Assembly: GCA_000621905.1 (NCBI GenBank)
Contig: JHXB01000008.1
Location: 62,001-126,000 of the forward strand
Direction: 5' to 3'
Length of the DNA: 64,000 nucleotides
Source: Lachnospiraceae bacterium NC2004
GTDB taxonomy: Bacteria; Bacillota; Clostridia; Lachnospirales; Lachnospiraceae
Below, piece after piece: positions 1,165-48,590 of this stretch. The position numbers and the translations under genes were made by a program. The notes under the pieces are model-generated. The model did not search any database and was not told the DNA's origin. It was given only the letters and a program-made list of their open reading frames with translations. The stretch's first letter is position 1; each line of letters starts with the position of its first letter.

Positions 1165-2778
1165 TTATTTCTTCTCAGCCTTTGTGTAGTAAATCTTGCC
1201 TTCTACAATAGGATCCCCTTGAGTAGCTTTCTTAAATCCAGTACCGTCCTTCTCAAACCAGTTTGCTCCGATTGTTTCAACTTCTTCATCAATCTCAACC
1301 GGTGTATAGGTGTAAGTCTTTGCTTCATAGTATGTTCCAGCTTCCTCAGCCTTATCACTATCTCCACACTTTACATAAGTACCAGAAGCTGTCTGCTTGT
1401 AAAGCCCCTTAAGAGACTCATCCTTCTGTACATTCTTAGGATCATATTCCAAAACGTCAACAGGTATCTTAGATGCAATTACAAAACTCTTAACATCACC
1501 AGGTGTCTTACACTCAGCAGCGATACCAGCCCTACGATAGTAGATAGTAGCATCTGCCTTAACTTTCTTAGCAGGAGTTGTTACACTCGCATCCTTCTTG
1601 TACTTAGACCACTTTGTCTTGTCATCAGGAGCTGATGTACCAATGTAGTATTCAACAACGCCTGCATATTTGTTATTAACTGTCAATCCCTTTTCAGCAT
1701 CATAATCGAATTCAAGGTCTCCAACAGCCGTCGTATTCTTAGCAAATGTTGCTACACCAACCTTTGAAGCAAGTGCTTTATCTGTTGCAGCCTTCTTAAT
1801 TCTTACAACACCTTCATCTACTGCAGGAAGAGTCTTTACTTCCTTGCTTGAGTTAGAGGTAAAAGTAGTCCATATATGAGCAGTGCCACCATTATCAACA
1901 ATTGTATACTCTGTATCCTTAGGAATAGTAACAGTACCCTTAGCGTAGTTAATGGCTACCTTTGGCCCGTTAGCTCTCTTCTTAAGCTTAACATTTATGG
2001 TTTTAGCGTTAGCCTGAACTACATTAGTATCCTCTACTTTAGCTTCATCATCATCTAAATAAGTAAACTTCTTGTTTTTAACTGACAACTTAGAAGCGTC
2101 GCTCTCTCCTAAAGGAGTAACCTGAATAGCTCCACCAATGTTATATAACTCCTTGTTAATTACATTAGTTTCTCCCACAAGTGCACTTCCGCCCAATGTA
2201 GCAGATACTGCACTAAATCCAGTAGCTTCATTGTTGACAGTAATCTCAGCAGAATCAGCATCTTTATTTATAGCAATTTTAGCTTTATACTTAGTAGCAT
2301 TAGCCTGAATCTCCCAAAAGATTGGTTTGGTGTAAGCAGCTGCATCTACTTTCTGAGGCGCTCCTTCCTCTTCTTCTACTTGTTTTGTAGCAACAGTTCT
2401 AAATGCTACCACCATATCTTTCTTTGGTGTGAGTGTGATATATCCGGTTGCGCCATCATATAAGTTCGAACCATCTTCTGCAGCATCTAAAACAGCGAAC
2501 TTATCAGTTCCTTTAACAATCAACTGTTTTGACTCATATGTATCCCAACTCTTAATTGTAGCTACGCTCTTCTTGTTAATTTTAACAACTCCGACCTGTA
2601 ACTCTTCATTAACTCCGACAGCCACAAATGAACCGTCTGCATTAACCTTTACAGCAAAATTCGTTTCTTCTGATTCTGCTGCACTCGCAGTTACGCCTCT
2701 TCCTACAGCACTAAATGCTGTTGCAAATGTCATAGCGAATGCTAAAACAAATGCGATTGTTTTCTTCATAGTTCTCAT
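1165..2778 (-). CDS. Secreted protein of unknown function with C-terminal repeats
   Basis: The start is set at MRTMKKT because AAGGAGGT lies 7 bases before that ATG; the open frame upstream has no comparable site. Residues 1 to about 33 form a signal peptide (KKT, then a hydrophobic stretch, then ASAA). The body is rich in Lys, Thr and Val and looks like beta-sandwich modules. Its middle and C-terminal modules match the first gene of the window, and residues around 275-380 (VAINYAKGTV, DTEYTIV, VRIKKAATDKALASKVG) match the 448-residue protein at 3244. The last 90 residues hold two copies of a short Tyr-rich repeat (YVKCGDSDK...GTYYEAK and FKKATQGDP...GKIYYTK). There is no LPXTG and no enzyme motif. 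It has its own promoter and a long leader. It is likely cell-surface or released. Confidence 0.85.
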   Translation of the reverse strand: MRTMKKTIAFVLAFAMTFATAFSAVGRGVTASAAESEETNFAVKVNADGSFVAVGVNEELQVGVVKINKKSVATIKSWDTYESKQLIVKGTDKFAVLDAAEDGSNLYDGATGYITLTPKKDMVVAFRTVATKQVEEEEGAPQKVDAAAYTKPIFWEIQANATKYKAKIAINKDADSAEITVNNEATGFSAVSATLGGSALVGETNVINKELYNIGGAIQVTPLGESDASKLSVKNKKFTYLDDDEAKVEDTNVVQANAKTINVKLKKRANGPKVAINYAKGTVTIPKDTEYTIVDNGGTAHIWTTFTSNSSKEVKTLPAVDEGVVRIKKAATDKALASKVGVATFAKNTTAVGDLEFDYDAEKGLTVNNKYAGVVEYYIGTSAPDDKTKWSKYKKDASVTTPAKKVKADATIYYRRAGIAAECKTPGDVKSFVIASKIPVDVLEYDPKNVQKDESLKGLYKQTASGTYVKCGDSDKAEEAGTYYEAKTYTYTPVEIDEEVETIGANWFEKDGTGFKKATQGDPIVEGKIYYTKAEKK

Positions 2779-3114
2779 AATGATTACCTCCTTGTAATAA
2801 TTTCTGAGTTCTGTTGTCGAACCCATAAGTTAAATATTTAGTTACGAGTCCGATCATGCCCGGGCCCCCGGCAAATGTTGTGAACGCGTCTTCCAGTGAA
2901 CCTGCTCACAACGCATGACCCAACACCTATTATATGTATCGGTCCACATGTCGTGATACTTAACCCTAAATTCAAAATTTTTTAAATTTCTCTCCATGAC
3001 GCTTAAACACTGAATCTAGAGTGTGTCACCCCGTTCACATATGACCTCAGTGCACATAAAAATCTTCAATATGCGAATCCGTTCACTAATCTTTATATGC
3101 TTTCACGGTCGTTA
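2779..3114 (-). promoter_or_regulatory. Long structured 5' leader of the 537-residue protein gene
   Basis: From the predicted transcription start near 3114 to the ATG at 2778 there are about 335 untranslated bases. Part of it folds as a three-way junction: an 8-bp closing stem (2913-2920 with 2852-2859), a 7-bp arm (2906-2912 with 2877-2883) and a GC-rich arm around 2859-2873. It contains ACTGGAAGACGCGT (2884-2897), a motif nearly repeated in the RNA at 4815-5291. No T-run terminator was found before the gene. It matches no riboswitch class I can recall. Confidence 0.45.
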
Positions 3115-3243: not shown

Positions 3244-4590
3244 TTATTTAACCGTACCTACGCATGTATAATCACTAGCGATAAGTCCATATTGACTGTC
3301 GCCTGAGCTTCTTATATATATCTTACTTCCTGATACAGCCCCGCCGATCTTGGCAGTTCCTTTAACCTTAGTGCTTCTACCCTGTGAATCAAGAGTTGCA
3401 CCCGGCTTAACAACCTGAAAATCATAAGAAAGACCTGTCTCATTGACTATAGTAAGCAATTTATTGCTGTAACTGATATTAATCTTCTTATTGTCATATG
3501 GTCCGACAATGTAACTTCCGTTGATATCTGTACTCTCTGTTGCCTTAGATCCTGACGCTGCATACGCATTTGGCGAAGGAACTACATAATAGTTAAATAC
3601 CTTGATTCTTGATGCAGGAGCCAATTTAGTAGCAACTTTTCTAATCTCCATATACCCTGATGAAGGAACAGCCGCATTACCTTTTATAGTATACTCGGTT
3701 CCGACACCATCAGTCGTCCATGCTGTTGCGCTTCCAGGATTGGTAGGAGTTCCTGTCACAAATCTGTACTCTGTACCGGCAGGAAGCTTAACCTTACCCG
3801 CAACATAGTTAAATACTGCTGCAGGAGCTGCGCCCTCGGCTTTAACATTTACCTTGGTCTCCTTACCGGCAAGCATACCCGCTACATAAACAGGAAGTGG
3901 AGAAGCTGATTCCTTGCTCTCATACATAACATCCTCAGCAGCTGTACTCGCTGTCGCACCTGCAAGACTGTAACTCTCAGGCTTAACCCTTAAGAACACC
4001 GTCGCACCCCTTCTTACAAGTGACTTCGTATCAATAGAAGAAGCATCGCTCCAACCTGTGCCGTATAATCTGTAATCAAGCTTATCAACCGAAACCGCTG
4101 CCTGAGTGCTCTTGTTGATTACATTAATAGAAGGAGCTTCTGACGAATAATCAACATTTGCCGAAAGCTTATCAATATTGGCATTAAATTTAACTGCAAA
4201 TGTATCACTGTAGCTACCGTTCTTATCTAACGCCTTAAGCAAAACTATGTTGTCCTTACCATTATTTAATGTGGAAAGATCAATACTCAACTCCTTGGCG
4301 CTGCTATAGTCATATATATTCCATGATGCCGCCTTGGCAACCTTGGCTGAAACGCCATTAACCTTGGTCGTCTTAACGTTGGCAACCCCCATATAAATCT
4401 CGTTGACACCGGTAAGACCCTTGCTTACAACCAAAGCCTGTGAAGATCCCGAATACGAAACCGCTTCTTTAGAAAATGTTGTAACATCCGCACCGGTTAC
4501 ATACCGTTCATTGCCTGTATATGCAAATGAAGCCAGTATCGCAATAATTATTGTGATTACTGCTCCCTTTCTTATAGTAGCTTCTCTCAT
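3244..4590 (-). CDS. Secreted protein of unknown function, paralogue of neighbours
   Basis: AGGAGGT lies 7 bases before the ATG. Residues 1-25 are a basic start and one hydrophobic segment (AVITIIIAILASFAY), a signal peptide or membrane anchor. The region around residues 255-345 (FNYVAGKVKLPAGTEYRF, MEIRKVATKLAPASRIKVF) aligns with the 537-residue protein next door (INYAKGTVTIPKDTEYTI, VRIKKAATDKALASKVGV), so the two are paralogues. The C-terminal module (IYIRSSGDSQYG) resembles the IYYRRAGI module of the others. No catalytic residues, cysteine pairs or cell-wall anchor signal are visible. It has its own promoter and terminator. The function is unknown; a surface structural protein or adhesin is possible but only a guess. 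Confidence 0.85.
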   Translation of the reverse strand: MREATIRKGAVITIIIAILASFAYTGNERYVTGADVTTFSKEAVSYSGSSQALVVSKGLTGVNEIYMGVANVKTTKVNGVSAKVAKAASWNIYDYSSAKELSIDLSTLNNGKDNIVLLKALDKNGSYSDTFAVKFNANIDKLSANVDYSSEAPSINVINKSTQAAVSVDKLDYRLYGTGWSDASSIDTKSLVRRGATVFLRVKPESYSLAGATASTAAEDVMYESKESASPLPVYVAGMLAGKETKVNVKAEGAAPAAVFNYVAGKVKLPAGTEYRFVTGTPTNPGSATAWTTDGVGTEYTIKGNAAVPSSGYMEIRKVATKLAPASRIKVFNYYVVPSPNAYAASGSKATESTDINGSYIVGPYDNKKINISYSNKLLTIVNETGLSYDFQVVKPGATLDSQGRSTKVKGTAKIGGAVSGSKIYIRSSGDSQYGLIASDYTCVGTVK

Positions 4591-4623: not shown

Positions 4624-4666
4624 CTCACGCTACGGACAAAGATTCTTCGCTTCGCTCAGAATGACA
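4624..4666. repeat. Family A palindromic repeat, partial copy
   Basis: It contains the core GATTCTTCGCTTCGCTCAGAATGACA, split here as GATTCTTCGCTTCGC then TCAGAATGAC. It lies inside the untranslated leader of the gene at 3244-4590. Confidence 0.7.
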
Positions 4667-4772: not shown

Positions 4773-4789
4773 CCATATTTTATTGAAAA

Positions 4790-4847
4790 AAGAGTGTGAA
4801 ATACTCTTACAAATACACAAATAACGGGGAGGCAACGCGCCTCCCCG
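4790..4847 (-). terminator. Tandem terminators of the structured RNA
   Basis: The first is a 9-bp GC-rich stem (CGGGGAGGC with GCCTCCCCG, 4825-4847) followed by TTATTTG. The second is AAGAGT/ACTCTT (4790-4808) followed by six Ts. Both read on the minus strand. Confidence 0.75.
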
Positions 4848-5291
4848 GATTATATCAATATTTAATTGACTTAACTAAATTGACATCGGATACATTCCCT
4901 ATCCACATGTCCCCACACTCAATACCATACTCAGCTAACTCTATATCAATATATCTATAATCGAACCTAAACTGAACTTGTCGATCGAGCGCCCATCGCG
5001 CCCCATATAAAATAGAACTTCTAGCTACCATCTCGCGGATCACAGCGCACCTTACAGGTCGCTACCGCTATGAGAAACAAACAGGAACTTAAGTGTACCG
5101 GCGTTCTAACCATTCCGATGTTGTATGTGAAAACATACTACGCGAACCTTACAACTATATACTAAAGGCTGAAAGTGTGGAAACCCTGTCTGCCACCCAT
5201 CATATTAAGTTGTAACAACGCTACCACTCTCCTTTCGAGATATCGGGCCACGCCCGTAGCTGCACGCGTCTTCAGTTACTCATCACTGACT
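4815..5291 (-). ncRNA. Probable free-standing structured RNA of about 475 nt
   Basis: This unit has its own strong promoter (5298-5326) and tandem terminators (4790-4847). Many stems are visible on the minus strand. These are a junction closed by 5220-5224 with 5256-5260 and containing a GGGC/GCCC hairpin, an 8-bp stem 5208-5215 with 5149-5156, a hairpin 5123-5138 with a 6-bp stem, a bulged hairpin around 5053-5073, and a two-part hairpin 4882-4911. A 62-codon frame starting at a GTG (4855-5043) lies in the 3' half. It has no good ribosome site, its start lies in a stem and its body is folded, so I treat it as chance, although a small protein is not excluded. I do not recognise the RNA class. 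Confidence 0.5.
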
Positions 5292-5297
5292 GTGTTA

Positions 5298-5326
5298 ATA
5301 TTAACATACCGTTTTATAATTGTCAA
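5298..5326 (-). promoter_or_regulatory. Strong sigma-A promoter for the structured RNA
   Basis: On the minus strand it reads TTGACA (5321-5326, consensus), a 17-bp spacer and TAATAT (5298-5303). It predicts transcription from about 5291. Confidence 0.65.
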
Positions 5327-5446: not shown

Positions 5447-5572
5447 TTGCCCTTCTTTCGAAGGGCAAAAGATTCTTCGCTTCGCTCAGAATGACACACT
5501 TTCTCTCATACGACCGATTCGTGTCATCCTGAGGAACGCAGTGACGAAGGATCTTAACAGATTCTTCGCATC
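5447..5572. repeat. Two family A palindromic repeats
   Basis: The first copy (5447-5500) is a TTGCCCTTC/GAAGGGCAA hairpin followed by TTCGCTTCGCTCAGAATGAC. The second (5520-5572) is the TCATCCTGAGGAACG variant in opposite orientation. The hairpin at 5448-5469 is followed on the minus strand by TTATTAT and could terminate the SMC operon. Confidence 0.7.
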
Positions 5573-5591: not shown

Positions 5592-8500
5592 TTATATAAA
5601 CTCAAAACTGTTCTGAGAGTAATCAACCTTCTTGTACTCAACCTCGGTCTTGTCGATCTGGCTTCTGTAGTCGGCAACAACGGTCTGCTGCTTGTCGCCT
5701 ACAAGTTTCTGCTCAAGAACGTAGTTAACATCAAATCTTCCCGTAATCGCAGGAGTTGTACCTCTCGCAGGAACAATAAGCTGAACATTGTTGACCTTAA
5801 GCATTTCAAAAATAGGCTCCCATATGTATATATCCTTGGCAGCTCCAAACGGATTATCAATAAATATAACCTTCTTAAGAGTGTTATTGTCACTGTTAAC
5901 CGCATGAATATTGGCAATGTAGTTGATGATAGAAATCAAGAACTGGATATAAATACCCTGCGACTGTCCGGTAGAACCAACAGCCTCCTCGTATTTCAAA
6001 TACCTACTCTGCTCTCTGATGCGTTCTCTCTTATATAACATAAGCTTGATCGCATTCATGTCTGTAACCACAGCAGAGAACATCCTCTTAAGCGACAAGC
6101 CATTTCTGATAAACTTAATCCTGTCGTCAGGATTGTCGTATCGGTCGACGCCCTTAACAATCTCATCTATATAAGAAGACATACTCTCCCTGACTTCATC
6201 GTCATCAAGATAAGGAATATTGAGCGAAATCATTGAAACCGGCTCGTTGTCAAGAGTAATCATAGAAAGCTTGGCAAGTCGCTTAAGCTCAGTCTTAACA
6301 TCCTGACACCTAAGGATACACTGGCTCTCAAAATTGCTCTTGATAAGCTCCATATCAGAGATACCCTGCTCTATCCTCTCTTGCTCGAGGTTAATAAAGC
6401 CAATCATGTCATTTAAACTAATCTCTAAATCGTCAAATCCGGAAATGCTGTCAGGAAGGTTAATATCCCTCTTAACAACCTCAGCAAGCTCGTAAGCCTC
6501 AAGTTCCTTAAGGGTCTCCGCTGCCTTCATCTTGTAGTCCTCTAAGTCAACCTTGGCCCTCTGTTCCTTCCTTATAGATTGTTCAAATGCTTCCTGGCAC
6601 GCCTTAAGCTGATCAACCTTATACTCAGACATATCTATAAGCTTCGATTCATCTTCCAATTCAAGATTGTAAAGACTCTTAAGTCTCTTGACATCCTTAT
6701 AAATGTCCTGTTTCTTAGACATAAGCTTCTGTCCCTGAATAAATGCATCAGTAAGCTCCGCCTTATGCTTAACCAACTCATTAAGTTGTTTCTTCTCGTC
6801 ATCAATAATTCTAGAAAGCTCCTCCTCGGTAACATCAACTCTCTGATAGCTGATTCCCTCGCTTTGAAGCCCCTTCTTACCATGCTCGATAACACCTTCA
6901 AGCCTGCTTCTATTGAGTCTTACTCCATCTTCGGCTTCTCTGACCTCGTCAAGTTTAGCGGTGTACTTGTCAACATTTGCCTCGAGACGATCAATCTCTG
7001 ATGAGCTGACCATGACAAGATCTCCGGAAGCGTAAAGCTTTTCGAACTCATCAAGATCAGCATTTCTGCGCTTAAGACCTTTCATGAGTTTGTCCATATT
7101 TCTGTCAAATGTATCTATGAGCGCCTGCTTATCCTCTAAATTGGCGAGTCTCTTCTCAACTACAGCCCTCATAGCCTTGAACTCAACATCAAGCTGTTCC
7201 TCGTTGTATCCAAGATCAAGCACCGGCTTGCCCTTATAGTACTCAGCGTACTGCTCGTTCCAGAGTTTCTCGCCCTCAAATATCTGCTCGTCGTAATTCT
7301 TCTTAAGCTCTCTGACTTCCTTGAGTCTGTTATTATCAGCATCAATTCTTGCCGAAACGTCGTCAAGCTGGGCCTTTAAGACATTAGCCTGCTCTAAAGC
7401 CTCCTGGTGCTCGGCACCGACAGCCTCAAATTCCTTATAAAGCTCCTCGATGTGCTCTAATATCGCAATCTCTTTCTTGATAGAAACGCCCTGCTCGTTG
7501 ACAACCTCCATCACCTCGTGAATCTTCTTCTCTTCTTCGACTAAAGCCTTCTCCTCCTCGTCGAGGTTAGCAAGCTCAGCATTATAGTCGACAACATTTT
7601 CAGGTGCATCGGAAAGAACAGAATCTAAGATGCCTTTGAGCTGAATCTGCTCCATAACAAAGTACGCGTCTTCCTCGTAAACCTTGCACATATCCTCTAG
7701 CTGAGTGTTGCTTAATTCAAGACGTGAAAGTCTTGCCTGCAGCTCGCTAAGTCCGTCCGACCCGGCATTTGCATCAAGGAAAATGTCTTCTCGACCGCTA
7801 AGAAATACCATGCCTTTAGCGGTCTTAACGCCCTCGCCTAAAGCATCTTTAGAAATGACAGGGATAAGCGTCTCGGAAGCCAACTCCCTCAGATACCTGT
7901 CATCATTAATGCCTGTGATATCAGCATCAGTAGCATCAACCACGATTGAAACCGCAAGATACGGCCAGTTTCTTAATACCTCAGCTCTATCGCCTTCATC
8001 AAGCCCAAGAATATAGTCCTGACCCAAATCGGCATCAATGCCATGCCTGTCAGCAATATAATCACGAATCTCAGACAAGAGCTCAAGGTTTGCAACCTGC
8101 CTTCCTTCCTCTCTCGCCTCAATCTGCTTCTTCAATTTATCGTAGGACTTAACGCCCTCGTTCCACTCGAGCACAGCACGTTTGTATTTGCCAAGCAAAT
8201 GCTTGTATAGCTCGCTCAAATCCTTGTTAGGAAGCTCCTTTCCATAAGCGGTGACAAGCGCCTCTGCCCTTGCTCTTCCTGCCTCAATCAGGGACTCAAG
8301 CTTGTCAACCTTGCCCTCACTGTCCTTCATATGCGAAAGAACAGCCTCGTACTCACGCCTCTTAAGGTTAATCTCGTAACTTGCCTGATCAATCTTCTTA
8401 AGCTGCTCCTCGTTCTTTCTATACTCTTTCTCGGCACCGTTAAGCTTTCTCTCGTACTCTCGAAGAAGCTTGGTCGCATCCTCTAAAAGCAAAAGGCTGG

Positions 8501-10007
8501 TCTTCTTGCGCTCAACATTAAGCTCTTTGTCAAGCCTGTCAAGATTCTTCTTAATTCTGGCCTCTTCGGCAAATGCTACCGCGTTGCTACACTCTAAATC
8601 GCGCTTTGCCTTCATCAGATTCTTAAGAGACACCTTAAGCTCGTGCTCTTCATTGGCAGAAGCCATGGACTTCTCTCTTACACTCTTAAGTCGCTCATCT
8701 AAGAACTTCTTCTTAACGGAAGCGTAATCGCTTAATCTGTCGACGCTGTCGCCCTCGCCGCCTTTACCTTTGGCGATAACGGCAGCATTTTCTTCGCGTT
8801 TCTTTCTGTACTTAGCGTACTCTAAGAAATCGTTGATATTAGCGTGGCGAATGTATTTGTCCTTAGCTTCTAAGAGATCCTTTTTGACATTTTCTATGCG
8901 CTTTATAGCTTCCTCTTCTTCCTTAATCGCACGCGCAAGGGCATACTCTTCAATCTGAACGCCCATGCAGGCGAGATTGCGCTCCTTAGCAACGCAGTCA
9001 TGCTCAATCGACTCAATCTCATTCTTCTTGCCCTTGAGATCACGCTCCATAGCGTCAATCTGATTCTCAAGGCTTCTGTAAGCCGACAAAAGCTCAATCT
9101 TATAAGATTCTTTCTCCTTAAACATCTCAGAAAGTGAGGAAATGCGGCCGTTCAAGACAGAAAGAACCTCTTTCTGCCTGTCATACGCCGATATCTCGCT
9201 CTTCTTCATAGATAGCTCCATCAGCTTATCTCTAATCTCCAAAAGGGTCTTAGACATTGAATCTGTAACATCCTCACCCTCGGTCTTGTCTCTAAATGAC
9301 CTCTCAATAATCTCCTCGATCAAGAGGTCCTCAACAACCTTTCTCGTGGTCTTGTAGTTGGTCTCAAAGTACGTTCTTACATGTCCCTCGGTCTTGTTGA
9401 TACCTCTGATAATCTCCCACGCACTCTCATAAAGGCCGTATTGACTGATAAATCGCTGATACTCACCTTTTCTGTCAAATATATAAACCTTAAGGTCAGG
9501 GTTCTCCCTTGAAAGATCCTTAAGATACTCTCTCAAACCGTTGTAGGTGATACGCTCTCCGTCTTTATCTAACGGGAGGTTCACGATATCATTTGAATTA
9601 TATGCACGATAGAAAATGCAGTAGTTAAAGTACTCTATCGATGCAGTGTCTCTGCCGCCGGTCTCGCCTTCATCGGAATCCTTGGCTTTTCTCGCGGTGA
9701 AACCGGTGAGCATATACCTGTAATCCTCGACAATATCGCTCTCATCAAGGTTCCACTCAACTAAAGAATGAATCGTCTTAGAACCGCCCTCCGTCCTAAA
9801 AAGCTTCTCAATAGGCTGCTTCTCGTCCAAGGTACAGTTAGGTATCAGATTCTGCATCATGAGAAGCATCAAAACGCTCTTACCGCCACCATTTGCAAGA
9901 TCGTAAATGGTGTTGCTTCCATGGAAACGCATCACGAAATCGTCGTACATCTGCGTACCAAAATTGTATTTAACATTATTAACCCTAATCCTGTTCATGT
10001 TAGGCAT
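5592..10007 (-). CDS. SMC-family ATPase, JetC/MukB-like
   Basis: This is a giant coiled-coil ATPase of 1471 residues with SMC architecture. An N-terminal nucleotide-binding half has a variant Walker A (DLANGGGKS, residues 36-44). A first long coiled coil spans about 240-640 and a globular hinge about 655-765. A second coiled coil spans about 780-1310. The C-terminal half has a signature-like GSTGQSQG (about 1345) and Walker B VIFIDNPFG (about 1380). The residue after the Walker B Asp is Asn where most SMC proteins have Glu. GGGAGGT precedes the ATG by 9 bases. It is the last gene of an operon with a JetB/MukE-like and a JetA-like protein, so a condensin-like or Wadjet-like DNA-loop-extruding complex is likely. 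No JetD gene is present. Confidence 0.8.
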   Translation of the reverse strand: MPNMNRIRVNNVKYNFGTQMYDDFVMRFHGSNTIYDLANGGGKSVLMLLMMQNLIPNCTLDEKQPIEKLFRTEGGSKTIHSLVEWNLDESDIVEDYRYMLTGFTARKAKDSDEGETGGRDTASIEYFNYCIFYRAYNSNDIVNLPLDKDGERITYNGLREYLKDLSRENPDLKVYIFDRKGEYQRFISQYGLYESAWEIIRGINKTEGHVRTYFETNYKTTRKVVEDLLIEEIIERSFRDKTEGEDVTDSMSKTLLEIRDKLMELSMKKSEISAYDRQKEVLSVLNGRISSLSEMFKEKESYKIELLSAYRSLENQIDAMERDLKGKKNEIESIEHDCVAKERNLACMGVQIEEYALARAIKEEEEAIKRIENVKKDLLEAKDKYIRHANINDFLEYAKYRKKREENAAVIAKGKGGEGDSVDRLSDYASVKKKFLDERLKSVREKSMASANEEHELKVSLKNLMKAKRDLECSNAVAFAEEARIKKNLDRLDKELNVERKKTSLLLLEDATKLLREYERKLNGAEKEYRKNEEQLKKIDQASYEINLKRREYEAVLSHMKDSEGKVDKLESLIEAGRARAEALVTAYGKELPNKDLSELYKHLLGKYKRAVLEWNEGVKSYDKLKKQIEAREEGRQVANLELLSEIRDYIADRHGIDADLGQDYILGLDEGDRAEVLRNWPYLAVSIVVDATDADITGINDDRYLRELASETLIPVISKDALGEGVKTAKGMVFLSGREDIFLDANAGSDGLSELQARLSRLELSNTQLEDMCKVYEEDAYFVMEQIQLKGILDSVLSDAPENVVDYNAELANLDEEEKALVEEEKKIHEVMEVVNEQGVSIKKEIAILEHIEELYKEFEAVGAEHQEALEQANVLKAQLDDVSARIDADNNRLKEVRELKKNYDEQIFEGEKLWNEQYAEYYKGKPVLDLGYNEEQLDVEFKAMRAVVEKRLANLEDKQALIDTFDRNMDKLMKGLKRRNADLDEFEKLYASGDLVMVSSSEIDRLEANVDKYTAKLDEVREAEDGVRLNRSRLEGVIEHGKKGLQSEGISYQRVDVTEEELSRIIDDEKKQLNELVKHKAELTDAFIQGQKLMSKKQDIYKDVKRLKSLYNLELEDESKLIDMSEYKVDQLKACQEAFEQSIRKEQRAKVDLEDYKMKAAETLKELEAYELAEVVKRDINLPDSISGFDDLEISLNDMIGFINLEQERIEQGISDMELIKSNFESQCILRCQDVKTELKRLAKLSMITLDNEPVSMISLNIPYLDDDEVRESMSSYIDEIVKGVDRYDNPDDRIKFIRNGLSLKRMFSAVVTDMNAIKLMLYKRERIREQSRYLKYEEAVGSTGQSQGIYIQFLISIINYIANIHAVNSDNNTLKKVIFIDNPFGAAKDIYIWEPIFEMLKVNNVQLIVPARGTTPAITGRFDVNYVLEQKLVGDKQQTVVADYRSQIDKTEVEYKKVDYSQNSFEFI

Positions 10008-10032
10008 AAGGTCTACCTCCCTAAATAAGCTG

Positions 10033-10740
10033 TTATTCGTCTCTTAGTAGCTCGTACAATCTTCCTCTGTTCTGTTCGAAGTAATTCTCAACTATCGCTC
10101 TCATTCTGTCTGTCGGGTAATACTGCTCACCTGCAGGAATCAACAATTTCTCTCCTACTAAGAAGTTTAGTACCGTCTTAACGAGTCCAGATCTTGAACC
10201 TCGGCCTGCTCTAAATCCGGTCTCATCGTCCGATTCGGTAAATGCTATCGGCATCTCATCCCAGAGAATCGCGATTGAACGAATACTGTGCTCCTCTATC
10301 TCGTCAGTAACCAAAACATCTAATTTGCTTAATGTTTTGGCAAATGCTGACGTCGTAAACTCCAACACCTCCGACGGAGAAACGCACTCGACAAACTGGT
10401 AACTTCCGGTGTCCTTGTAAAATACCAAAATCACCTGGTACATAATGTAATAGCAAAGATATAATTCTTTGTTGTTTTTAAGACCCATGACTTTCTTAAG
10501 TTCTTCGTTGGTGTAACCGAAAGTTCTGTTACCGTCACCGGCAGTCATATAAAGCGCCGAATTGTGGTCGTAGAGGTTAAGATTGAGCCTCTTTAGCATA
10601 TTCTGCAGACACTCGTAAACCTCGGCGTTATCCATATATTCCTGGTATAAAGTCTGGTTGGCGCCGCTTAAGCTCACTTCCTCACCCATCATGAGCTTGG
10701 CGTATATATCCATTGCCTTGTCAATATTCTTCTGTTCCAT
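10033..10740 (-). CDS. JetB/MukE-like subunit of the SMC complex (DUF6063-like)
   Basis: This soluble 235-residue protein has no signal peptide or metal motif. Its size, its position between a JetA-like and an SMC gene, and its end (RMRAIVENYFEQNRGRL) fit the small winged-helix MukE/JetB subunit that bridges kleisin and SMC. I recall related sequences being filed as DUF6063. The stop lies 25 bases before the SMC start, so translation is probably coupled. An AAGGAT site precedes the ATG. The family assignment rests mainly on context; the fold itself would need structure prediction. Confidence 0.6.
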   Translation of the reverse strand: MEQKNIDKAMDIYAKLMMGEEVSLSGANQTLYQEYMDNAEVYECLQNMLKRLNLNLYDHNSALYMTAGDGNRTFGYTNEELKKVMGLKNNKELYLCYYIMYQVILVFYKDTGSYQFVECVSPSEVLEFTTSAFAKTLSKLDVLVTDEIEEHSIRSIAILWDEMPIAFTESDDETGFRAGRGSRSGLVKTVLNFLVGEKLLIPAGEQYYPTDRMRAIVENYFEQNRGRLYELLRDE

Positions 10741-10754
10741 GCTTTATCCTTTCT

Positions 10755-10834
10755 TAACTACCCAATGGGGACAGTCCCTACTGAGTACTTATCCGCTAAG
10801 TACCCAATGGGGACTGTCCCCTTTGAGTACTTAT
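10755..10834. repeat. Two family C palindromic repeats
   Basis: Two copies of a palindrome have the form TAASTACYCAATGGGGACAG followed by its complement. They fill the gap between the JetA-like and JetB-like genes, and the JetA-like stop codon abuts the repeat end. Confidence 0.8.
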
Positions 10835-12375
10835 CATATATCAGTTCTGTTAAACGAGAGATTATTAACCTTAAAGCCCTTGTGCGGCTCTATCTCCTCT
10901 TCTAAACTCTCAACCTTAAACTTAAGCTTCCCGTATCTCTCCCTCTCCTCCTGCGTCAGAGTCGAGTAAATAATACCATCCAAAAATGTATCCTGTTTGC
11001 TAAGCACTCCCTCAACCGAGTAGTCGCGTCTTCCGGCAAGATGAACCAAAAACGAGTAGTAATCAGCATTTGCCAAAATATCCTCACCGAATCTGACTTC
11101 TAAGATAGGATTAAGTTCCGTGAGTGTTATATCGTGCTTCTTCTTAATCTGCTCCATAAGCTCGACCATAAAAAGATGATAGTTGTCGCTGATTCTCTCC
11201 TCCTCAATGTCATCCGGGCAAATGTAGTCGCTCTCTTCAGCGACTTCCTCTTTCTTCTCCCTAAGAGCCTTGCTGTCCGGTCTGACGCTTAAGAGCCTAT
11301 CCACACTCACAAAGTCAAATGTCTTCTTGATATTGATGTCAAACAGCGGATTAAGTATGTGAAGAAGCTTTCTTGCGTCGTCCGATTCCTCGATAACATC
11401 AAGCTGTTCCTCAAAGTCAAATACCGGCCTTAGGCGTTTTAACTTGGCGCGCTTAATGTAATCGTCGGTAATCTTGGAAAGTTCGACTGTCTCTGCAATA
11501 AGCTTGGCGTGACGCTCGATAGTCTTCTTAAGCTCATTTTCCAGCTCATATATCTCCTTAAGGACAGTATAGTATTTCTCCCTGTCCTCAGCGGAATCGG
11601 CACTTCCCTCCGCCTTATTAAGCGCCGTCTCTATAAGATCTCTGTTCTTCATAAAGAGGCGTTCTTCCTCGTCGAACCACTTGGCAACCGACTTAATGTA
11701 TCTGTCGTAAGCCTCGGCACCCTCATAAACATCGGACTCTAGCACCTTGATTACTTCCTGTTTCTTAAGCGCCATACGGCTAACCTCGCCATTTATGCGC
11801 CTTACAACGTCAATTCCGCCTCTGAAATTGTTGGCGTGTATCATTTTCTCCAAAAGAAGTTGCTCTATGCTTATCTTGGATTCGTCCTTAACTTCCTTGG
11901 TATCGAGGTAGAATTCCACGCCCTCCGCGGTGATTCGATAATATATAATTCCGCCCTCTATCTCGCTCTCGATGAGCTTGATACGGCTTACTTTATGTGT
12001 CTTGGATTTGGGATCGTAGTGTTTGAAATAAAAAGGCTTACCGTCGTTCTTAAGCCTGTCGAAAATGAAGGTTACAAGCTCGTCAAGTTCCTCTGTCGAA
12101 ACTTTCAAAGAGAAGTCTCTTATCAGAAGCTCGCTAATAAAATTCCTGTACGCGCCGTAATCTACGCGACGCTCATTAAAGTTGTTCTCATCAATAAAAA
12201 AGCGAAGGGAAGCAAGGGTGATATAACCCATGTCAAGGTCGTTGTATCTGCCATCCTTGTACTTGGCAAAATCCATCTCCTGCAACTTAAAAAAAGGATA
12301 ATACTTCTTGAGATTATCCATTCTAAGCTCGTGATTATCAATAATGTCATTTAAGAGAATGTATTGCTCTGCCAT
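10834..12375 (-). CDS. JetA-like kleisin subunit of the SMC complex (DUF5716-like)
   Basis: The start is set at MAEQYILLND because AAGGAT precedes that ATG; the frame upstream of it runs into a repeat. The 513-residue product is soluble and highly charged. An N-terminal region of winged-helix character (about 20-165) is followed by long helices (about 180-320) and a C-terminal domain ending VEEEIEPHKGF. I associate this with the JetA family of Wadjet (formerly DUF5716), the MukF-like kleisin. It is the first gene of the three-gene operon. The repeats between the genes could affect mRNA stability but not co-transcription. Confidence 0.7.
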   Translation of the reverse strand: MAEQYILLNDIIDNHELRMDNLKKYYPFFKLQEMDFAKYKDGRYNDLDMGYITLASLRFFIDENNFNERRVDYGAYRNFISELLIRDFSLKVSTEELDELVTFIFDRLKNDGKPFYFKHYDPKSKTHKVSRIKLIESEIEGGIIYYRITAEGVEFYLDTKEVKDESKISIEQLLLEKMIHANNFRGGIDVVRRINGEVSRMALKKQEVIKVLESDVYEGAEAYDRYIKSVAKWFDEEERLFMKNRDLIETALNKAEGSADSAEDREKYYTVLKEIYELENELKKTIERHAKLIAETVELSKITDDYIKRAKLKRLRPVFDFEEQLDVIEESDDARKLLHILNPLFDINIKKTFDFVSVDRLLSVRPDSKALREKKEEVAEESDYICPDDIEEERISDNYHLFMVELMEQIKKKHDITLTELNPILEVRFGEDILANADYYSFLVHLAGRRDYSVEGVLSKQDTFLDGIIYSTLTQEERERYGKLKFKVESLEEEIEPHKGFKVNNLSFNRTDI

Positions 12376-12396
12376 CTTAATCCTTCCCCGGATAAT

Positions 12397-12475
12397 TAAG
12401 TTCTCAATGGGGACTGTCCCCATTGGGTATTTAGCAACAACTTCCCAGTGGGGACTGTCCCTACTGGGAAGTTAT
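12397..12475. repeat. Two family C palindromic repeats
   Basis: Two GGGGACTGTCCC palindromes, one flanked by AATGGGGAC/CATTGGG and the other by CCCAGTG/CTACTGGG, lie between rsmA and the JetA-like gene. Confidence 0.8.
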
Positions 12476-13394: not shown

Positions 13395-13462
13395 CTGTCA
13401 TTCTGAGCGTAGCGAAGAATCTTTTAAGATCCTTCGTCGCTTTGCTCCTCAGGATGACATAA
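13395..13462. repeat. Family A palindromic repeat
   Basis: This is a full inverted unit: GTCATTCTGAGCGTAGCGAA at one end and TCGCTTTGCTCCTCAGGATG at the other, around AATCTTTTAAGATC. It supplies the last codons (Met-Ser-Ser) and the stop codon of the gene at 13449-14672. Confidence 0.85.
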
Positions 13463-28869: not shown

Positions 28870-28917
28870 TTGCCCTTCTGCGAAGGACAAAGATTCTTCG
28901 CTTCGCTCAGAATGACA
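28870..28917. repeat. Family A repeat
   Basis: A GCCCTTC/GAAGGAC half-hairpin is followed by TTCGCTTCGCTCAGAATGAC. It sits about 50 bp from the 248-bp palindromic element. Confidence 0.75.
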
Positions 28918-41597: not shown

Positions 41598-41727
41598 ATA
41601 TTGACCTTCTTCGAAGGTCAAAGATCCTTCGCTTCGCTCAGAATGACATTTTTTTACATAAACCTCGGTGGTTTTACCACCCTGAGGCTATTTGTGTTTG
41701 GGATCCTTCGCTTCGCTCAGGATGACA
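41598..41727. repeat. Family A repeats with interposed sequence
   Basis: A complete unit (GACCTTCTTCGAAGGTC then TTCGCTTCGCTCAGAATGAC, 41598-41648) is followed by GGTGGTTTTACCACCCTGAG and a second TTCGCTTCGCTCAGGATGAC (41707-41727). A GGTGG..CCACCCTGAGG motif also lies beside the family A copy at 28939. Confidence 0.75.
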
Positions 41728-48555: not shown

Positions 48556-48590
48556 TACCATGTCATTCTGAGCGAAGCGAAGAATCTTAA
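48556..48590. repeat. Family A repeat, half unit
   Basis: TGTCATTCTGAGCGAAGCGA followed by AGAATCTTAATAATAGG lies just before the Nudix gene and contributes to its leader. Confidence 0.75.

Follow-up and report, generated by a model that had tools for sequence, protein, structure and literature searches.

A predicted pseudoknotted RNA gene beside a type III Wadjet operon in one genus of Lachnospiraceae

The locus and its transcription unit

The window analysed here (64,000 nucleotides of Lachnospiraceae bacterium NC2004) carries on its minus strand the JetABC genes of a type III Wadjet system (5592-12423, assigned by PADLOC models), placed between a TPR-like gene and a gene further upstream of jetC that we take, from its sequence, to be rsmA-like. 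The RNA gene described below sits between this SMC-type (Wadjet-like) cluster and the cluster's neighbour, and its whole unit occupies the minus strand of the window, as judged by reading the sequence and by promoter and terminator searches. The unit and its upstream neighbour comprise:

5592 to 10007, minus strand: jetC, whose product is an SMC-like protein of type III Wadjet; linkage with the RNA kept in five of five species
5298 to 5326, minus strand: sigma-70-type promoter, TTGACA, 17-nt spacer, TAATAT; same geometry in five of five orthologues
4825 to 5290, minus strand: noncoding RNA gene that begins at GUCAGUGA and ends with terminator 1, about 466 nt; orthologues L002, L003, L004 and L008
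4825 to 4847, minus strand: terminator 1, a 10-bp stem with a poor T tail (terminator search)
4786 to 4808, minus strand: terminator 2, a 6-bp stem (4808-4790, AAGAGU...ACUCUU) followed by T's (read from the sequence)

The predicted start lies at about 5291/5290, and the RNA begins with GUCAGUGA. All five orthologues have a promoter of the form TTGACA-17-TANNNT a few bases 5' of GTCAGTGA, and hexamers, 17-nt spacing and the interval before GUCAGUGA agree among the five to within 1 base. Each orthologue also has its own terminator, including the sequences of L003, L004 and L008. The predicted transcript measures about 470 nt if it ends at terminator 1 and about 505 nt if it ends at terminator 2. 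An earlier note, made from the sequence of the window alone, had proposed a consensus promoter, a transcript of about 475 bases and tandem terminators; the promoter is indeed present on the minus strand with its geometry conserved, and the two stems lie at 4847-4825 and 4808-4786.

The gene that follows the RNA is TPR-like in three species, and surface proteins take this place in two. Where the surface proteins intervene, about 7.5 kb separates the RNA from the TPR-like gene (measured in the window's genome). Two large surface-like proteins are encoded within this gap on the minus strand (window positions 1165-2826 and 3244-4590), neither with a Pfam or NCBIfam match above the cut-off. A DNA motif, CTACATCTTGTAGGTGCA, is conserved 5' of the TPR-like gene in three species (minus strand, at about 710-735 in L003, 1065-1085 in L004 and 565-590 in L008) and looks like a regulator box. 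A dispersed repeat, GATTCTTCGCTTCGCTCAGAATGACA, occurs seven times in the window, where no copy is expected, and two copies flank the RNA gene (4641-4666 and 5471-5496; the others lie at 13396-13421, 28892-28917, 41623-41648, 41702-41727 and 48561-48586). It is probably a small palindromic mobile repeat.

Distribution, constraint and coding potential

The RNA is found once per genome, downstream of jetC, in all five genomes searched of this GTDB genus, and its carriers form a small group of gut Lachnospiraceae. The copy in G003 (L002) is 95% identical in DNA to the RNA of the window, and diverged copies occur in G004 (L003), G002 (L004) and G001 (L008). Lengths to the terminator across the five orthologues are 466, 466, 733, 592 and 546 nt; the set consists of these five sequences only, two of them about 95% alike. 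Conservation is concentrated in about 200 nt at the 5' end and about 75 nt at the 3' end, and the middle differs in both length and sequence:

5090 to 5290, minus strand: conserved 5' domain (alignment A2), 62-75% identical between divergent species
4930 to 5089, minus strand: species-variable middle, 160 nt here and 399, 246 and 206 nt in L003, L004 and L008, respectively
4849 to 4929, minus strand: conserved 3' domain (alignment A4), nhmmer E of 8e-23 or better in five of five

A covariance model of the 5' domain (R1) matches the five genus genomes at E of 1e-51 or better and has no credible match outside the genus in the 397 family and 392 order genomes sampled, or in 40 relatives searched with laxer filters. 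When 85,000 species genomes were scanned with a two-motif pattern, ten stretches came up. The model matches just the four from Lachnospiraceae (L024, L027, L028 and L029), which are genus copies already known; the other-phylum stretches fail the RNA model and were rejected, as were pattern matches from IMG/VR. Searches of IMG/VR, phages and plasmids gave no real match at the sensitivities used. A 41-nt DNA match in another genus (L005), a terminator-like stretch after an unrelated gene, was attributed to chance. Chance was also taken to explain L042 and L046-L050, which R1 matches weakly (15-21 bits) and which have no core motif and nhmmer E values of 0.13-0.41. Reading of JetC-bearing genomes from other genera showed a TPR-like gene or other DNA after jetC, without the RNA. 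Because these jetC loci lack it, an origin or insertion of the RNA gene within this genus is probable. A genome of another genus (G019) carries, about 900 nt downstream of jetC (L014), a long purine-rich and apparently noncoding stretch with a TTGACA promoter-like start, which the model of this RNA does not match.

Fourfold-degenerate sites of jetC (last ~670 codons) are 72% identical in the closest pair and 24-47% identical, near saturation, among the rest; the JetC proteins of the diverged species share 51-65% identity. The 5' domain of the RNA is 97% identical in the closest pair and, between divergent species, reaches the range listed above. Because these values are far above those of the jetC fourfold sites, the RNA is under strong constraint, though it does not code. 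A test for a conserved reading frame found none kept. A short mRNA for a 62-codon protein has in its favour a frame that is open in the window (4855-5043, minus strand), but in the 95%-identical orthologue a 1-nt insertion shifts this frame into a stop at codon 26, three 1-nt indels fall inside the RNA in the closest pair, the frame has no Pfam or NCBIfam match, and L003 and L004 contain no frame of at least 60 codons within the RNA on its strand, so that the explanation is refuted for this frame and retains almost no probability. The earlier note had seen no convincing gene in the unit and had named strong protein conservation of the 62-codon frame as evidence against an RNA; in the closest relative the frame is dead, being both shifted and stopped.

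Covariation and the pseudoknotted core

Thermodynamic stability is unremarkable (z -1.43 for the whole unit and -0.46 without the terminator), so the stems pointed out in the earlier note do not by themselves constitute evidence. Comparison of the homologous loci, which that note had suggested, does reveal compensatory changes and delineates the following elements:

5244 to 5256, minus strand: hairpin P2, CGGGC GUG GCCCG; four of five pairs compensatory, triloop in all
5209 to 5219, minus strand: hairpin GUUG UUA CAAC, inside the invariant motif GUGGUARCGUUGUYACAA
5174 to 5184, minus strand: helix A, 5' arm GUUUCCACACU (covariation)
4909 to 4919, minus strand: helix A, 3' arm AGUGUGGGGAC, 11 bp; terminal pair U-A/G-C/A-U
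5144 to 5147, minus strand: helix C, 5' arm GUUC; three of four pairs compensatory
5103 to 5106, minus strand: helix C, 3' arm GAAC (covariation)
5123 to 5138, minus strand: hairpin P6, GUAUGU UUUC ACAUAC (alignment fold, unbiased scan)
5114 to 5121, minus strand: helix B, 5' arm ACAUCGGA, enclosed by helix C
4883 to 4890, minus strand: helix B, 3' arm UCCGAUGU (covariation)

In helix A, GUUUCCACAC(U/G/A) pairs with (A/C/U)GUGUGG..C located ~255-500 nt downstream. Helix B (7-8 bp) joins CAUC(G/A)GA to UC(C/U)GAUG, with a G-U intermediate in L004, and helix C occurs as GUUC/GAAC, GUCC/GGAU or ACCC/GGGU. Helices A and B are long-range and return the 3' end of the RNA onto its 5' domain. Read from the aligned sequences, the arm order A5-B5-A3-B3 is that of a predicted pseudoknot. 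The core consists of helices A, B and C together with hairpins P2 and P6, with the variable middle forming a loop between B5 and A3.

In the aligned arms of five helices, 159 of 160 cells (99.4%) hold a standard pair, against 91.5% in shuffles, and pairing falls to 37-53% (at most 52.5%) in sliding-partner controls. Changes on both sides affect 9 of 32 pairs compared with 4.3 in shuffles, a count of 9 being reached by 1 of 500 shuffles; the arms were picked partly by eye before testing and the alignment was hand-corrected, and an unbiased scan of that both-domain alignment recovers the same helices; compensatory change is present in 7 of its stems, whereas none of 200 column shuffles gave more than 4. 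The stable stems and three-way junction of the earlier note are borne out in part: structure is real and its stability weakly so, but the junction of the minimum-energy fold is not supported by covariation, which favours a different, pseudoknotted core with a species-variable insert.

Other pairings were also considered. When the 5' domain is folded alone (RNAalifold), the GUUUCCAC arm pairs locally with the upstream GUGGUARC, without compensatory change, and this segment may switch between the helix arm and the local partner. Helix E (GCGU/ACGC, alignment columns 25-28/228-231) pairs in five of five sequences without compensatory change and overlaps helix C. Two hairpins were dropped, GUAAC/GUUAC being broken in L004 and L008 (read by eye) and CCUU/AAGG in L003.

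G-U intermediates are seen in helices A, B and C, which favours RNA pairing over DNA cruciforms. Adjacency to the SMC-like operon might suggest a DNA-level element, such as a site of replication, segregation or recombination, perhaps for the SMC complex, but the conserved flanking promoter and terminators, the long-range pairing with its G-U intermediates, and a variable middle and pseudoknot unexpected for a DNA site make this exceedingly improbable.

Relation to known RNAs and possible role

No Rfam family reaches threshold in a scan of the whole window, and nothing relevant appears when the surrounding 1 kb is searched with permissive filters at E<=10, nor in three homologous loci at E<=1. 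The covariance models of ROOL, GOLLD, OLE, raiA and HEARO match neither the RNA unit nor its homologues. The earlier note had been unable to match the sequence to OLE, GOLLD, ROOL, HEARO, 6S, tmRNA, RNase P or SRP, and the Rfam/Infernal-type scan at E<=10 leads to the same result. Both tmRNA and RNase P RNA contain pseudoknots and have their ends folded together; however, neither model matches this RNA, and the genome holds its true copies of RNase P, 6S and tmRNA elsewhere. A tRNA search of the window found none.

This RNA recalls ROOL in its size, its predicted pseudoknot and its variable linker; ROOL is itself large and noncoding, of uncertain function, and combines pseudoknots with a linker that is disordered (PMC12286853). 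In contrast to ROOL, which occurs in phages and prophages, often near tRNA islands, the present locus is chromosomal and adjoins jetC. GOLLD, also large, has one region that is conserved and another that is less so (PMC12286853); in the present RNA it is the two ends that are conserved and the middle that varies, and the IMG/VR and phage records searched gave no real match to it at the sensitivities used. The raiA motif, or ModT (RF03072), is a stand-alone structured RNA of Bacillota with pseudoknots (PMC11706538); it is shorter and conserved in >2,500 species, whereas this RNA is found in five species of one genus. OLE, a stand-alone RNA of ~600 nt in Gram-positive bacteria (PMC9723947), has another neighbourhood. 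Homo-oligomeric RNA complexes are a feature of ROOL, GOLLD and OLE. These likenesses in size and architecture are what would favour a highly diverged member of a known large family (ROOL, GOLLD, OLE or raiA/ModT) or a housekeeping RNA; set against the empty Rfam searches, the separate housekeeping copies and the position beside jetC rather than in a phage, such an origin is very unlikely. Microbiome scans have listed thousands of unnamed RNA candidates (PMC8040213). The best reading is a new family within the broad kind of stand-alone structured bacterial noncoding RNAs, set apart from Rfam families by model. The proposal of the earlier note, a structured RNA that is new and has a promoter and terminators to itself, is supported by the lack of an Rfam match, by covariation and by the loss of the 62-codon frame.

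The explanation that fits best, with a probability of about 0.87, is a gene, confined to one Lachnospiraceae genus, whose RNA is transcribed independently and left untranslated and has a putative scaffold role in trans. The RNA would be made from its own promoter, the pseudoknotted core would be its working part, and it would act in trans; an RNA scaffold or an RNA-protein particle, bearing a species-specific appendage, is the likeliest form. A role as a cis-regulatory leader is unlikely because two terminators precede the next gene and the next gene differs between species.

Alternatively, the RNA may be a working partner, either subunit or regulator, of the JetABC SMC complex. No match to JetD_C (PF09983) occurs in the whole genome, which leaves an SMC-like set without a recognised nuclease, and linkage to jetC is kept in five of five species even where ~7.5 kb separate the RNA from the next ancestral gene. 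However, linkage is weak evidence among five related species with general synteny, where function and inheritance are inseparable; the RNA does not accompany JetC homologues in other genera and is served by a promoter of its own, and no copy of it lies next to a second JetC-like match, a distant one, in G002 (L020). A partnership of this kind is doubtful, and it is improbable that the RNA serves JetABC, as a nuclease-less SMC complex of Wadjet type, in the part of a dedicated component or regulator. Searches of the open-licence literature brought up no RNA described next to Wadjet genes.

Bacteria have few large RNAs of conserved structure whose role is not known, and several such RNAs have proved to be unexpected machines. 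The trans-acting RNA gene favoured here would add a family that appears undescribed, whose pseudoknot core is backed by covariation and whose place beside an SMC-type operon is fixed. If the link to JetABC were true, it would make JetABC an SMC complex that has a structured RNA linked to it genetically.
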